Source: Ruminococcus flavefaciens (GTDB lineage: Bacteria > Bacillota > Clostridia > Oscillospirales > Ruminococcaceae). Taken from it: a stretch of DNA of 64,000 nt. The notes beneath the pieces were generated by a model. The model was not told the DNA's origin. It searched no databases and saw only the letters and a program-made list of their open reading frames with translations. The stretch spans positions 50,230 to 114,229 of the forward strand of contig CACYSQ010000003.1 of NCBI GenBank assembly GCA_902777125.1, read 5' to 3'. How positions within the stretch are numbered: the stretch's first letter is position 1; the number at the start of each line of letters is the position of its first letter. A program made the translations under genes and the position numbers. Below, in pieces: positions 33,524 to 38,128 of the stretch.

Positions 33524-34269
33524 TACGCGGACGCATTCACTCGACCGAAAGCTTCGGGACGGTTGACGGTCCCGGAGTGCGCTTCGTCGTGTTCTTTCAG
33601 GGCTGTCCCATGCGCTGCCTGTACTGCCATAACCCCGATACATGGGACTTTTCCGGCGGTCGGGAGGTCACTGCGGAGGAGCTCATGGCGGAGTACGACT
33701 CATACAGGGAGTTCCTGAAAAGCGGCGGCATCACTGCGACCGGCGGCGAACCTCTCGCACAGCCCGAATTCCTCGCGGAGCTTTTCGCACTCGCTAAATC
33801 AAAGGGCGTTCACACCTGCCTTGATACGTCCGCAGGCGTTTTCGACCCGCAGTCTCCCTGCAGGATCACTGAGGCGCTGAAATATACAGACCTCGTTATG
33901 CTCGATATCAAGCACATAGACGACGAAGCTCACAGAAAGCTCACAGGTCACACGAACAGGAATATCCTCGATTTCGCGGAATATCTGCGCGAACTGAATA
34001 TCCCCGTGTGGATAAGGCACGTTGTCGTGCCCGGTATGACCGACGACCCGGACGCACTTTTCCGGCTCGGAGAATACCTCTCCACACTCACGAACCTTAA
34101 AGCTCTCGACGTCCTCCCCTACCATGATATGGCAAAGCCGAAGTATGCCGAGCTCGGACTGGATTACCCACTCGGCGATACCCCCCCCCTCCCGAAAGAA
34201 AAAGCCATCGAGGCACGGAACAGGATAATGGAGGGCATAAAATACGGTCTGAAGCATAATTCTCAATGA
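33520..34269 (+). CDS. pflA: Pyruvate formate-lyase activating enzyme
   Basis: 249 residues, a radical SAM protein with C29-x3-C33-x2-C36 (GCPMRCLYC), GGIxxTGGEPL-type SAM loop and HVVVPGMTDD. It installs the glycyl radical in pyruvate formate-lyase, whose gene is not in the window. ATGA overlap with cca. Confidence 0.95.
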   Translation: MIRGRIHSTESFGTVDGPGVRFVVFFQGCPMRCLYCHNPDTWDFSGGREVTAEELMAEYDSYREFLKSGGITATGGEPLAQPEFLAELFALAKSKGVHTCLDTSAGVFDPQSPCRITEALKYTDLVMLDIKHIDDEAHRKLTGHTNRNILDFAEYLRELNIPVWIRHVVVPGMTDDPDALFRLGEYLSTLTNLKALDVLPYHDMAKPKYAELGLDYPLGDTPPLPKEKAIEARNRIMEGIKYGLKHNSQ

Positions 34270-34286
34270 CCGCAAGTAAAAAACGT

Positions 34287-34317
34287 CCCCGGAGACTGTC
34301 CTGTGACAGTTCCGGGG
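34287..34317. terminator. Shared terminator between pflA and the MFS gene
   Basis: Stem CCCCGGA...CTGTC / GACAG...TCCGGGG. On the minus strand it is followed by ACGTTTTTT, so it chiefly ends the MFS transcript; the plus-side T-run is weaker. Confidence 0.82.
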
Positions 34318-34324
34318 ATTTCTG

Positions 34325-35602
34325 TTAATCTTTACTCTTTCTGAGCAGCATACTGAATACCACGCATACTGTAACTCCTGCAACTCCGAGGACTGCAAAA
34401 AGCATTGCTGTCCCCGAGCCCTTTCCGCTGCCAAAAAGAGTGGTCAGCGGACTATCCGCGGCTTGTCCGGACATATAAGGCTCAAAGACCTTGTCTATGA
34501 GGACGCCTCCCAAAAGGTAGCCCAGCGGTATAGTGAAGAACTGCAAGGTGTTCCGGCAGGAGTACACTCTCCCCTGCATATCGGGAGGGATAGCGCTCCT
34601 GAGAATGACGTCCAGATTTGCGCCCATATACGGTATAAAGAGCCAGCCGCAGACGGCTCCGGCACACCATACCGCAGGCGAATCGCTGAATGCGAGCATG
34701 AAATTTTCCGTGCTCATCGAAAAGAAAAGCGAAAGGCATATCGCACGGACGCGGTTTTTCGGTGCAGGTGCGAACGAAGCTATAAGGCTTCCGGCGAGAG
34801 CTGCTGCTCCCGCGAAGAAGTTGACAGTTCCGAGCGTATTCTCGCCGTTTGCAGCCTTTGACAGTATCATTGCCGGAAGCGCTGCATTGTAGGCGGAGGC
34901 TATGAGGTTTATCCCTGCGAGGAAGCATATGAGCTTCAGCACGACCGGACAGTCTCTCAGCCATTTCAGTCCCGACCTCACCGATGAAAGCAGTGATTCC
35001 CTGCTCTCTGACGTTTTATCCGGCTCCGGCACAGGTATGAACAGCAGCAGCGTTATGAATGCTGCCGCGAACGTTATCAGGTCGGTGGCAATGACCGCTG
35101 TCACTCCGCCGAGCGTGAAAAGTACCGTTGCGATAACAGGTGTCAGCAGCGAATTGAGCGACCTCGAAAGCGACCGCAGACCGCTTGTTTTCTGGTAGTA
35201 TTCCTTTGGTATGAGCTGTGTTGAGGCGACCTCGCTCGCAGGCTGCTGAACGGTGTTCATGAGCCCGTTGAGAGCGTTTATCGCGTACAGGTGCCAAAGC
35301 TCGAGCGCCTCTGTTTTTATGAGGACGAACGCCGCAACGGTCGTCATTGCCGCGAAAAGGTCGCACAGCAGCATGGTACGCTTTTTGTTCCATTTATCGC
35401 TGAGTGCGCCTGCGAAAATGCTCATCAGGACGTAAGGTGCATACGAGCAGACCGTCAGCAGGGCGGTTTTAAGTGCCGAGCCGCTGTTATTGTACAGCCA
35501 CAGCACCAGCGCATAGCTTGTCATGCTGCTTCCGAGCTCGGAAAGCGACTGTGTGCTCCACAACAGGAGATAATTTTTGAGTTGTTTCAGTGGATTTTTC
35601 AT
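34325..35602 (-). CDS. MFS exporter, DHA3-like (drug efflux type)
   Basis: 425 residues with 12 predicted helices. The loop 2-3 motif is GALSDKWNKKRTML, and the opening LLWSTQSLSELGSSMTSYALVLWLY fits the DHA3 branch that includes macrolide exporters such as Mef. Substrate unknown. ATG 35600-35602 follows AAGGAGC. The leader of 131 nt after the ABC-F stop holds a short leader peptide and competing RNA arms that cover the ribosome site, suggesting induction by ribosome stalling. Confidence 0.88.
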   Translation of the reverse strand: MKNPLKQLKNYLLLWSTQSLSELGSSMTSYALVLWLYNNSGSALKTALLTVCSYAPYVLMSIFAGALSDKWNKKRTMLLCDLFAAMTTVAAFVLIKTEALELWHLYAINALNGLMNTVQQPASEVASTQLIPKEYYQKTSGLRSLSRSLNSLLTPVIATVLFTLGGVTAVIATDLITFAAAFITLLLFIPVPEPDKTSESRESLLSSVRSGLKWLRDCPVVLKLICFLAGINLIASAYNAALPAMILSKAANGENTLGTVNFFAGAAALAGSLIASFAPAPKNRVRAICLSLFFSMSTENFMLAFSDSPAVWCAGAVCGWLFIPYMGANLDVILRSAIPPDMQGRVYSCRNTLQFFTIPLGYLLGGVLIDKVFEPYMSGQAADSPLTTLFGSGKGSGTAMLFAVLGVAGVTVCVVFSMLLRKSKD

Positions 35603-35603
35603 T

Positions 35604-35700
35604 TGACTTTGCTCCTTTTGATCTTGGAATATCGTCGGAATGCAAAGTCAGAGGGAGATTTCTACCCTCCATGCAGCTCCCTCAGACTCTGCACGGAGCT
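35604..35700 (-). promoter_or_regulatory. Putative translational attenuator before the MFS exporter
   Basis: Minus-strand arms, 5' to 3': arm 1 CTCCGTGCAG (35698-35689); arm 2 GCAGAGTCTGAGGGAG (35692-35677); CTGCATGGAG (35676-35667), able to pair with arm 1 over 10 bp with one G-U; arm 3 CTCCCTCTGACTTTGC (35657-35642), pairing with arm 2 over 16 positions with 2 mismatches; arm 4 GCAAAGTCA (35612-35604), lying between the Shine-Dalgarno and ATG and perfectly complementary to TGACTTTGC of arm 3. Arms 2:3 and 3:4 exclude each other. There is no T-run after 2:3, which points to control of translation. Confidence 0.6.
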
Positions 35701-35720
35701 TTTACAACGCATCTTCTCAT
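35682..35720 (-). CDS. Leader peptide MRRCVVKAPCRV
   Basis: A 12-codon frame, ATG 35718-35720 to TGA 35682-35684, with AAGGAAG 8 nt before the start and only 13 nt after the ABC-F stop. Its last codons lie inside arms 1 and 2 of the RNA structure, so a ribosome on it would decide which arms can pair. Size and place match drug-sensing leader peptides of erm and mef genes. The peptide itself resembles no leader I know. Confidence 0.55.
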   Translation of the reverse strand: MRRCVVKAPCRV

Positions 35721-35733
35721 TATCATCACTTCC

Positions 35734-37659
35734 TTATTCGTCAAGCTCTATCAGCATTTCGAGATCCTCGTCTATTTTCTGCTTCAGACGGTCGATCTCG
35801 GTGCATTTTTCGTTCATCAGCTCATAGTCGGAATAGACCTCTTCCCTGCCTATTTCCTCCGTAAGAGCATCTATCTGCGCCTGCAATTCGTCTATCTCCT
35901 TTTCAAGACGGCGCATCTCGTTTTTCCGGGCAGCGTCAGCGCTTCTCTGCTGCTTGCTGCGGTAGGTCTTAACGGACTTCTCCTTTGCAGCTTCGTAGGC
36001 AAGCTGCTGCTTTTCGGCGTCAGCTGCACGTTTTTCGGCAGCCTGCTCCTCACGGAGAACGTCAAGGTACTTCTCGAAGCCGTAGTTATGGCAGCGGTAG
36101 CCATCCGCGGTAAGCTCAATTAGACGGTCAGCTATCTTGCTGAGAAGATAGCGGTCGTGCGAAACGAAAATGACCGTTCCGGTGTATTCCTCCAGCGCCT
36201 CCTCGATAGCCTCTTTTGACGCGAGGTCGAGGTGGTTTGTGGGCTCATCGAGAATGAGGACGTTGCCGTGTTCCTGCATCATAATGGCAAAGCAGAGCTT
36301 CGCGCGTTCGCCGCCGCTGATGACGCCGGTCTCCTTGAAAACGTTCTCACCGACAAGTCTGACCTGTGCGAGCAGACTGCGGACCTCGAGGTCGGACAGT
36401 GACGGGTACCTGCTATGGAGCTCCTCCATAACGGTCAGCTCACGGTTTAGCTGAGTGCTCTCCTGCTCGAAATAGGATATCCTGATATTGGTGTTCCAGC
36501 GGACCGTTCCCCTGTGCGGGAGCTGTTCCTGAATTATGCGGAGAAGCGTGGATTTTCCGATGCCGTTGTCGCCGATTATGCCGACCTTTTCGCCTCGTCT
36601 CACCTCAAAGCTGACATTGTCGATGAGAGTTTTCCGCTTCGTACCCTCGCCGACCGAGATGTCGATGTCCTTGACCTTCAATACGTCGAGCGGAGGTTCG
36701 GCTGCATATGTAAAGCGTATTTTCGCGGACTTCGTATCGTGTACCGGACGCTCGATGCGTTCTATCTTATCGAGCTGTTTCCGACGGCTCTGAGCCATTT
36801 TCGTGGTGGAGGCACGGACGAGGTTGCGGGCAACGTAATCCTCCATTTTCGCTATCTGCTTCTGCTGGAGCTCGTACTCCTTCTCACGGCGGGCATCATT
36901 TTCCTCACGCTGTCTCACAAAGGCGGAGTAATTGCCGCGGTAGCGCGTGAGGATCCCGCGTTCTATCTCGCATATCGAGGTACACAGACGGTCGAGGAAA
37001 TAGCGGTCATGCGAGACTATCAGGACCGCTCCCCTGTAGATGCGGAGGTAGTCCTCAAGCCACATGATAGTCTTGAAGTCGAGGTGGTTTGTAGGCTCGT
37101 CGAGAATGAGCAGATTAGGCTCCTCAAGCAGGAGCTTGGAAATGCACAGACGGGTCTTTTCGCCGCCGCTGAACCCGGAAACGGTACGGTTCAGCTCATT
37201 TTCCGTGAAGCCCATGCCGTTGAGGATAGTGCGTATCTTCACATCGGTGTTGTAGCCGTCGTTAGCCTCTACCCACGATGAGAGCTGCTGGTATTCGTCA
37301 GCGGAGGAATCGTCCCCGGCTTCTATCTCCCTCTCTATCTCGCGGAGGCGTTCGATAGCACGGCGCATAGGCTCAAAGACCTTCCGCATCTCGTCTATGA
37401 CGGTGCTATCCGAATCAAGGCCGCCCATCTGTTCGAGGTAGCCTATCGTGGTCTTGGCGGCAAGGGAAATAATGCCGTCCTTCTCGGTGAAGCGGTCGGG
37501 CTCGACCGAGCCTGTGAGTATTTTCAGCAGGGTGGACTTTCCGCAGCCGTTGTTTCCCACAAGACCTATCTTGTCGGTCTCGTCAATGGTCAGGGAAATA
37601 TTGCTGAGCACCTGGTTTCCGTTGTAGAATTTGTTTATATTCGTAAGACTTGCAAGCAT
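35734..37659 (-). CDS. ABC-F family ATPase (YdiF/Uup-like)
   Basis: 641 residues, two ATPase domains with Walker A GNNGCGKST (35-43) and GDNGIGKST (about 355), signatures SGGEKTRL and SGGERAKL, and a C-terminal coiled coil of about 80 residues. No membrane helices. ABC-F proteins enter the ribosomal E site; some are housekeeping translation factors, others protect against antibiotics. The coiled coil and ordinary linker look like YdiF/Uup, but the place before an attenuated exporter allows a resistance role. AGGAAG before ATG 37657-37659. Confidence 0.93.
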   Translation of the reverse strand: MLASLTNINKFYNGNQVLSNISLTIDETDKIGLVGNNGCGKSTLLKILTGSVEPDRFTEKDGIISLAAKTTIGYLEQMGGLDSDSTVIDEMRKVFEPMRRAIERLREIEREIEAGDDSSADEYQQLSSWVEANDGYNTDVKIRTILNGMGFTENELNRTVSGFSGGEKTRLCISKLLLEEPNLLILDEPTNHLDFKTIMWLEDYLRIYRGAVLIVSHDRYFLDRLCTSICEIERGILTRYRGNYSAFVRQREENDARREKEYELQQKQIAKMEDYVARNLVRASTTKMAQSRRKQLDKIERIERPVHDTKSAKIRFTYAAEPPLDVLKVKDIDISVGEGTKRKTLIDNVSFEVRRGEKVGIIGDNGIGKSTLLRIIQEQLPHRGTVRWNTNIRISYFEQESTQLNRELTVMEELHSRYPSLSDLEVRSLLAQVRLVGENVFKETGVISGGERAKLCFAIMMQEHGNVLILDEPTNHLDLASKEAIEEALEEYTGTVIFVSHDRYLLSKIADRLIELTADGYRCHNYGFEKYLDVLREEQAAEKRAADAEKQQLAYEAAKEKSVKTYRSKQQRSADAARKNEMRRLEKEIDELQAQIDALTEEIGREEVYSDYELMNEKCTEIDRLKQKIDEDLEMLIELDE

Positions 37660-37675
37660 ATGATCTTCCTTTGCA

Positions 37676-38128
37676 TCAAACTTTCCTGTAAAGGCTCACA
37701 TAAGCGTCAAGCTCATTGAAGCCGTTCTTCCTGTAGAACCTGTAAGCAGGCTTGTCACTGTCGGTCTGGAGGAATATCCCAGCCAGTCCGCGTTTTTTTA
37801 CCTCAGCCTCTATCATGCCCATGAACCTTCCGCCTACGCCCTGATGCTGCATATCCGGGGCAACGCAAAGCTCCTCGATGTTGTAGTTCGTGCCCTCCCA
37901 CCAGTGGCGCACCATGCCGACCGAGAGCGCAATGAGCCTGCCATTGGCGATGAGCCCGAAATTCAGCGAATTGTAGGAGTGTGATATCTCCTTCATGTAC
38001 TCCGTGAGCTGTGCATCATCGCTCCAGTCGTCATTCCACGGTTCGCCCCTGAAAGCGCTCCTGTAAAGCTCCGCCATCTGCGGAAGGTATGTATCGTCAA
38101 GCTCTGTGAATACTTCTGTGTAGTCCAT
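37676..38128 (-). CDS. GNAT family N-acetyltransferase
   Basis: 150 residues from ATG 38126-38128 (GGGGAG upstream). Has FRGEPWNDDWSDDAQL near the N-terminus, the acetyl-CoA loop MQHQGVGGRFM and the C-terminal AYRFYRKNGF. The EPWN-D-W block is seen in GNATs related to small-molecule acetyltransferases. Substrate unknown. It lies 20 nt after the membrane-protein gene and 16 nt before the ABC-F gene in one minus-strand run. Confidence 0.9.
   Translation of the reverse strand: MDYTEVFTELDDTYLPQMAELYRSAFRGEPWNDDWSDDAQLTEYMKEISHSYNSLNFGLIANGRLIALSVGMVRHWWEGTNYNIEELCVAPDMQHQGVGGRFMGMIEAEVKKRGLAGIFLQTDSDKPAYRFYRKNGFNELDAYVSLYRKV

Follow-up and report, generated by a model that had tools for sequence, protein, structure and literature searches.

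Organisation of the leader region

Does the short leader frame in front of this MFS exporter gene, together with the RNA arms that overlap it, form a switch that governs translation of the exporter, and if so, what would the switch sense? The locus lies on the minus strand of a 64,000-nucleotide stretch of Ruminococcus flavefaciens DNA, the whole of which was analysed and is here called the window, and it consists of the following parts:

35729..35735, minus strand: Shine-Dalgarno sequence of the leader, AAGGAAG, overlapping the end of the ABC-F gene (read from the sequence)
35682..35720, minus strand: leader peptide frame MRRCVVKAPCRV, 12 codons and a stop codon (from the sequence and the coding signature of 125 distinct leaders)
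35690..35698, minus strand: arm A, CUCCGUGCA, within leader codons 8-10; pairs with arm C, and its GCUCC can pair with the exporter Shine-Dalgarno sequence
35678..35692, minus strand: arm B (arm 2 of the original prediction), GCAGAGUCUGAGGGA, including the leader stop codon; pairs with arm D in the open state
35667..35675, minus strand: arm C, UGCAUGGAG; pairs with arm A in the closed state
35642..35656, minus strand: arm D (originally arm 3), UCCCUCUGACUUUGC; partner of arm B (open) or arm E (closed)
35604..35612, minus strand: arm E (originally arm 4), GCAAAGUCA, between Shine-Dalgarno sequence and start codon; pairs with arm D
35612..35617, minus strand: Shine-Dalgarno sequence of the exporter, AAGGAG (read from the sequence)
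34325..35602, minus strand: MFS exporter gene; Pfam MFS_1 above its cut-off, NCBIfam TIGR00900 and Mef profiles below theirs

The stop codon of the ABC-F gene ends at 35734 and the leader frame, with its own ribosome site, begins 13 nt later, exactly where the original prediction had placed a 12-codon leader. Its arm 4 likewise lies between the Shine-Dalgarno sequence and the ATG (35602) of the exporter, and the nine perfect base pairs that it had claimed between arms 3 and 4 are found as D:E, with arm E reading GCAAAGTCA. The pairing of arms 2 and 3 is also present and conserved as B:D, its extent being 14 out of 15 positions in the window, with G-U pairs allowed (16 positions with two mismatches in the original prediction). 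Arm 1, by contrast, does not pair with arm 2 as had been proposed, but overlaps it by the shared GCA of arms A and B and pairs with an additional arm, C, so that arm B sits inside the loop of the A:C hairpin. Furthermore, the GCUCC of arm A is complementary to GGAGC at the exporter Shine-Dalgarno sequence, which makes a direct pairing possible.

Folding of 35590-35740, the check that had been suggested for this region, gave -43.6 kcal/mol compared with -31.2 (sd 3.5) for shuffled sequences (z -3.55), and none of 200 shuffles was as low. As cut, this segment folds into the B:D form and, with other ends, into the D:E form, and the two states are thus close in energy. Conservation is much stronger evidence for the RNA than this comparison with shuffles.

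Both alternative folds are conserved and covary

An exporter match was present in 18 out of 60 related genomes, and among the 14 strongest, the window's own included, the leader RNA was found upstream in 13, while the remaining one lies at a contig edge where only D and E are visible. A scan of the genome collection matched at least 594 stretches, at least 568 of which encode relatives of the exporter, and the best 80 of these were kept; they are labelled Ruminococcus flavefaciens, other Oscillospiraceae, Lachnospiraceae and further Clostridia, with one MAG (L100) labelled Bacteroides. Leader and A:C hairpin are present in 77 of these 80 best homologues, a simplified form in two (L095, L097) and neither in one (L051), where no such RNA was detected within 420 nt upstream and no A-arm pattern within 1600 nt. 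Of the 77 leader-bearing loci, 76 have an arm E, identified by script in 75 and by eye in L057; L074 lacks it.

Where the arms were located by script, 776 of 792 cells are paired for A:C (88 loci), 1195 of 1260 for B:D (84 loci) and 648 of 656 for D:E (82 loci), counts that are flattered since the arms had been located by the pairing itself. None of these counts includes L011 (cut) or L022 and L025 (which repeat L003 and L004); L013, L054, L074 and L098 were excluded from those for B:D and D:E, and L009 and L057 additionally from that for D:E.

A MAFFT alignment was built from 50 loci, the window and 49 out of 61 references that fitted the length limits, with 12 near-identical or longer ones removed by hand. 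Here the closed fold (A:C plus D:E) has 98.3% of its cells paired and two-sided changes at 7 pairs, in 19 cells (2.4 and 3.5 in shuffles), and the open fold (B:D) has 96.0% paired with such changes at 8 pairs, in 38 cells (3.9 and 11.4 in shuffles), values that none of 500 shuffles reached for either fold. The number of further pair types, a weaker measure, was equalled by 8 (closed) and 13 (open) of 500 shuffles. As a control, a shift of one side by 1-3 columns left a pairing of only 29-51%, and RNAalifold, unaided, returns the closed fold. On a quick tree of 90 exporters, B:D pairs 4, 5, 7, 8 and 9 changed state 14, 12, 19, 13 and 16 times, respectively, and D:E pair 2 changed 20 times, many of these being one-sided wobble changes.

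Covariation in both folds implies that strand D retains its pairing with two different partners. The locus and its relatives hence carry mutually exclusive pairings, one of which closes the downstream ribosome site, as is typical of ermC- and cat-type attenuators. The original prediction of two competing folds, one shutting the exporter start, is thereby backed, with the covariation of arms 2:3 and 3:4 for which it had asked to be looked up in relatives found for both, and the leader frame and the pairings, whose absence from relatives would have spoken against it, are conserved.

Competing arms of this kind also resemble an antiterminator and a terminator, as expected if the leader acted on transcription in the fashion of mef/mel. 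However, the minus strand of 35604-35720 holds no terminator-like site, and none of 86 loci has TTTT, or five T among eight bases, directly behind arm E, so that we regard transcription attenuation as very unlikely.

The leader evolves as a coding sequence in fixed register with the arms

We compared 130 leaders, comprising the window, the loci from related genomes and the genome collection, the covariance-model loci with an exporter or CatA-like gene (below) and L189; omitted were L002 (a distinct sequence), L003 and L004 (repeats), L011 (cut) and, as repeats or near-repeats, L161, L162, L167, L170, L173 and L177. The start lies exactly seven codons before codon 8 in 113 of the 130, one codon later in seven, and one, two or five codons earlier in three, one and four, respectively, with two leaders unassigned by the script. 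The five leaders that begin two to five codons further upstream still hold the core LCIxxAPC, e.g., MSNIRLPLCIAFAPCKV.

Neither arm A nor arm B reaches into codons 2-7. Among the 125 distinct leaders, 46% of the single-base codon differences in this stretch are synonymous in frame compared with 15% and 20% in the other two frames, and none of 60 column permutations reached this value (mean 24%, highest 39%). Taken together with its own ribosome site, this signature indicates that the leader evolves as a coding sequence, as in attenuators of the ermC/cat type.

The consensus is M-x-L-C-I-[A/V/D]-x-A-P-C-[K/R]-V, in which residue 7 and much of codon 2 are unconstrained and residues 4-6 differ between leaders (CIA, CIV, MSA, IND, GLD, IDD). 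The most fixed base outside the arms is G16, the first base of codon 6 (120 out of 125), preceded by T15 in 104 out of 125, and both are near-fixed at the nucleotide level despite the differing residues (A, V, D) that codon 6 encodes. Inspection by eye revealed no pairing partner for nt 15-16, and an alternative NTG start in another frame over U15G16, also considered by eye, meets an immediate stop in the window. The arrest motifs of erm leaders are IFVI, IAVV and RLR, and these occur in none of the 128 assigned leaders.

The coding signature also bears on the idea of a metabolite- or drug-binding riboswitch in which the leader frame is incidental. A long conserved RNA with alternative folds before a transporter gene would suit such a riboswitch, but beside the coding signature, the conserved bases all fall in arms, codons or Shine-Dalgarno sequences, with no further conserved block seen by eye, and the simple forms described below retain leader-like starts and not the RNA. 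We therefore consider a riboswitch highly improbable.

Folding with a blocked 5' end places the predicted stall early in the leader

To approximate a parked ribosome, the 5' end of the leader was removed stepwise and the rest was folded, a strand truncation that is a mere proxy, at 82 of the 90 loci of the arm table (the other eight, L002 among them, had no usable E arm or were presumed repeats). Unblocked, the loci gave mean probabilities of 0.52 for B:D, 0.41 for D:E and 0.49 for pairing of GCUCC with the Shine-Dalgarno sequence, and the exporter ribosome site, GGAGCAAAGUC, was unpaired at 0.20. This value was 0.22-0.38 for blocks of 20-25 nt and 0.47-0.49 for blocks ending at nt 26-28, with B:D at 0.79 (nt 27) and 0.78 (nt 28), and it returned to 0.13-0.16 for blocks from nt 30 up to 49, where D:E dominates (at least 0.91). 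Within the range 20-40, the best block ended at nt 26-28 in 52 of the 82 loci, at 25-28 in 60 and at nt 21 in 11. The site was more open with block 27 than with block 34 in 78 loci (four did not follow) and more open than with block 21 in 67. For the window itself, block 27 gave 0.87 for B:D and 0.38 for the site, compared with 0.07 unblocked and 0.01-0.18 at blocks 24, 31, 36 and 49.

A first, cruder measure that considered GGAG alone had found no contrast between a block to nt 31 as the stalled state (0.319) and one to nt 49 as the terminating state (0.320; the stalled value was higher in two out of 82 loci), with 0.308 when A:C was enforced and the unblocked RNA as the most closed (0.116). 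A post hoc reading suggests that this measure may have missed the contrast since blocking as far as nt 31 already covers too much of the leader.

Assuming that a ribosome extends about 15 nt past the first base of its P-site codon, an optimum at nt 26-28 would put its P site on codon 5 and its A site on codon 6. The conserved core of the peptide ends at codon 6, right beside this predicted position, and the case for a stall there rests most strongly on this agreement between the fold-derived site and the conservation boundary, which are separate lines of evidence. The folding proxy hence fits an early stall, at about codon 5, and not the late stall that had originally been envisaged. That U15-G16 is close to invariant where the P and A sites are predicted to meet suggests that the codon in the A site may itself be part of the arrest.

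Simplified forms and genes downstream of the switch

Beside the five-segment RNA there are simple forms. L095 (leader MVLAIAASPVDD), L097 (MVLAIAGAPFHL), L153 (MINCIAYAPCR) and L157 (MINCSVYAPCR) have no B:D part, and their codons from 8 onward pair straight with the Shine-Dalgarno sequence. In these four loci and in the CatA-like locus L196 (MKRGLDEAF), blocks up to 21 leave the site shut (0.00-0.01), and from block 24 onward it opens in part or for the most part, in L097 only to about 0.2-0.4. Five-segment CatA-like loci with the leaders MKRGLDAAPCEA, MKRGLDNAPCEA and MKRGLDAAPCKA share the start of the simple L196 leader. The view that leader translation chooses the fold thus draws support from the coding signature, the fixed register of leader and arms, and these simplified sister loci.

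A covariance model (R1, E <= 0.001) matched 29 out of 391 genomes of the class and 37 out of 345 of the order, the genome of the window and two others being in both draws. From the 70 distinct matches, 57 were examined as loci: 43 precede an exporter (window included), six a CatA-like acetyltransferase, four a small protein of the CD3324 family and four other or unclear genes, one of which, L159, is probably a chance match. NCBIfam was applied to two proteins from each of the CatA-like and CD3324 groups, and the rest were assigned by eye; the two CatA-like proteins so compared scored 212 and 210 bits, below the CatA cut-off of 270, and in L185 the CatA-like frame holds an in-frame stop.

CatA-like matches occurred in 43 of 245 genomes, and of 30 such loci examined a single one, identical with L187, has the five-segment RNA; the simple leader hairpin was seen in two of seven CatA-like upstream regions viewed by eye, the script flagged two further loci, and upstream of a Pusillibacter CatA-like protein (73% identical) no such RNA was seen by eye. 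The link between the switch and CatA-like genes is real, but it concerns a minority of these genes.

Several loci depart from this pattern. In L179, whose leader MKLAIVTAPCKVIWDRDCMEY has no early stop, the gene behind the RNA encodes another kind of protein, by eye similar to a ceramidase-type hydrolase. A related or convergent leader RNA lies upstream of the gene at ten CD3324-family loci (NCBIfam NF040785; L154, L156, L158, L160, L224, L225, L227, L230, L242 and L243), by eye with A:C-like hairpins, arms reaching the Shine-Dalgarno sequence and the leader in another frame, and other members of the family were seen without it. In L012 and L167 (G041), from a genome of another family, one TGA breaks the exporter frame and the leader RNA is in place.

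Regarding mobile elements, two IMG/VR contigs filed as viral (L222, L223) carry both RNA and exporter. Among the 12 plasmid matches to the exporter listed, out of 259 records, two (from Clostridia) exceed 50% identity, and the RNA itself matches one of these two; the RNA gave no match in phages. A loose pattern search (one mismatch) found matches in 91 of 297 genomes, with fewer for the reversed pattern as control; many of these do not look like this RNA by eye, and they were kept out of all counts.

The exporter and its ABC-F neighbour

The exporter reaches 85-98 bits against NCBIfam cut-offs of 675-870 for Mef(A), Mef(B), Mef(C) and Mef(En2), far below every resistance cut-off listed, and its profile matched no solved structure. 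The ABC-F protein upstream (35734-37659, minus strand), in contrast, scores 438.7 bits against the cut-off of 380 for ribosomal-protection-like ABC-F proteins; its best named exception model is OptrA, below the OptrA cut-off, and its gene lies behind a GNAT acetyltransferase gene. A partnership of ABC-F and exporter was considered and rejected: across the 80 loci, some of them cut by contig ends, there were only three partial matches of 27-32% identity, on the far side of or inside the locus, and no full-length neighbour. The ABC-F gene that the original prediction had set ahead of the leader is therefore incidental to this genome. As a whole, that prediction is partly supported, as it was right in kind and needed correction in detail.

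Proposed mechanism and the signal sensed

Very probably, the RNA is a translational attenuator of the ermC/cat type that opens the exporter when the predicted stall occurs early in the leader. In the closed state, with the leader translated to its end or free of ribosomes, the exporter ribosome site would be shut, either by D:E while A:C holds arm B or by the GCUCC of arm A lying over the Shine-Dalgarno sequence. A ribosome that stalls early, its P site at about codon 5, would cover GCUCC and leave the first bases of arm B free; arm B could then capture arm D, releasing arm E and the Shine-Dalgarno sequence, and the exporter would be translated.

The cause of the stall would most probably be a ribosome-targeting antibiotic that acts together with the nascent chain of consensus M-x-L-C-I-[A/V/D], and the controlled genes, exporters and an acetyltransferase, point to a small ribosome-acting drug. 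Our guess for a first candidate inducer would be a peptidyl-transferase drug such as a phenicol. Chloramphenicol prefers Ala, then Ser and Thr, as the penultimate residue, and large side chains clash (PMC11832420, in excerpt). With codon 5 in the P site, the residue before the last would be leader residue 4, which is small (C, A, T, S, G) in 95 of 125 leaders, mostly Cys and hence not a named preferred residue, and Ile or Met in 26. This pattern may be compatible with a phenicol-like inducer as a loose fit, and is not proof of one.

The frequent Cys codons could instead be read by an attenuator responding to amino-acid starvation, since 69 of 125 leaders have Cys at codon 4 and 118 have it at codon 10. 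Yet codon 10 falls inside arms A and B, the simple-form leaders MVLAIAASPVDD, MVLAIAGAPFHL and MKRGLDEAF are devoid of Cys, and the controlled genes encode exporters and acetyltransferases and not cysteine metabolism, which leaves starvation sensing with a very small probability.

A general sensor of translation stress, in which any early slowing (poor initiation, many drug classes, shortage of aminoacyl-tRNA) opens the exporter and no drug-specific arrest peptide is involved, deserves more consideration. The freedom of position 7 and of much of codon 2 and the variability of residues 4-6 are loose for an arrest peptide, and the excerpted report of PMC12121999 provides a precedent in the form of a bacterial leader frame responsive to several classes of drugs. 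On the other hand, the coding constraint acting on codons 2-7, retention of the core by leaders with longer N-termini and the near-invariance of G16 (120 of 125) argue for a defined stall site, and we judge a general stress sensor rather unlikely.

Coming back to the drug-sensing attenuator, we tentatively propose, at somewhat less than even chances, that M-x-L-C-I-[A/V/D] is an undescribed arrest peptide and the sensor of a portable module. It would stall the ribosome at codon 5 (P site), ahead of a GNN codon in the A site, under a peptidyl-transferase inhibitor, and in different bacteria the module would be coupled either to the five-segment switch or to a single hairpin, in front of exporters or CatA-like enzymes. 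If so, the module would rank among the more frequent RNA switches for drug sensing in rumen and gut Clostridia.

Comparison with known attenuators

Within 34200-38000, Rfam returned two chance-level matches only (E 0.36 and 0.54), neither of them in the leader and both on the opposite strand, and at seven further loci no match at gathering scores. No description of this RNA was found in the openly licensed papers searched, judged by titles and the beginnings of abstracts, and the excerpts of PMC11109978 and PMC3827270 do not mention it (further background in excerpts of PMC5118997 and PMC13410324). In our best reading, the RNA is an ermC/cat-type translational attenuator with a new leader peptide, present in Oscillospiraceae, Lachnospiraceae and other Clostridia and working along known lines. 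Most of the known drug-sensing attenuators belong to a small set of resistance genes from pathogens. The present switch sits on an exporter family of rumen and gut Clostridia and is widespread there (77 of the best 80 of at least 568 relatives). Should it respond to drugs, it would represent an inducible, so far unnamed resistance system in commensals and an additional arrest peptide, as well as a reporter for the natural ribosome inhibitors that these bacteria meet.

With mef/mel (msrD) the locus shares a leader frame ahead of an MFS exporter gene. The mef/mel leader acts by transcription attenuation, according to the excerpt of PMC5418344, whereas here there is no terminator and the MFS protein lies below the Mef cut-offs. 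The leaders of cat, cmlA and fexA control translation of phenicol acetyltransferase or exporter genes (same excerpt of PMC5418344), and leader-controlled translation is what we propose here as well. Unlike those, most members of the present group have five segments, with B:D as an alternative fold. The single-hairpin forms presumably correspond to the layout of the cat attenuator, and the leader sequence, as we take it, differs from those of cat and cmlA.

The likeness to ermC is in the short leader frame, the alternative pairings and a stall, here predicted, that opens the downstream start, as outlined for ErmCL in the excerpt of PMC5418344. The present RNA differs from ermC in its leader peptide, in the additional pairing of arm A with the Shine-Dalgarno sequence and in the exporter or CatA-like gene that it controls. 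The predicted stall lies at about codon 5, whereas ErmCL stalls at codon 9. The switch is common and exact, and the prediction that the 3' edge of the ribosome would stand at leader nt 26-28 renders the ermC-type logic testable.
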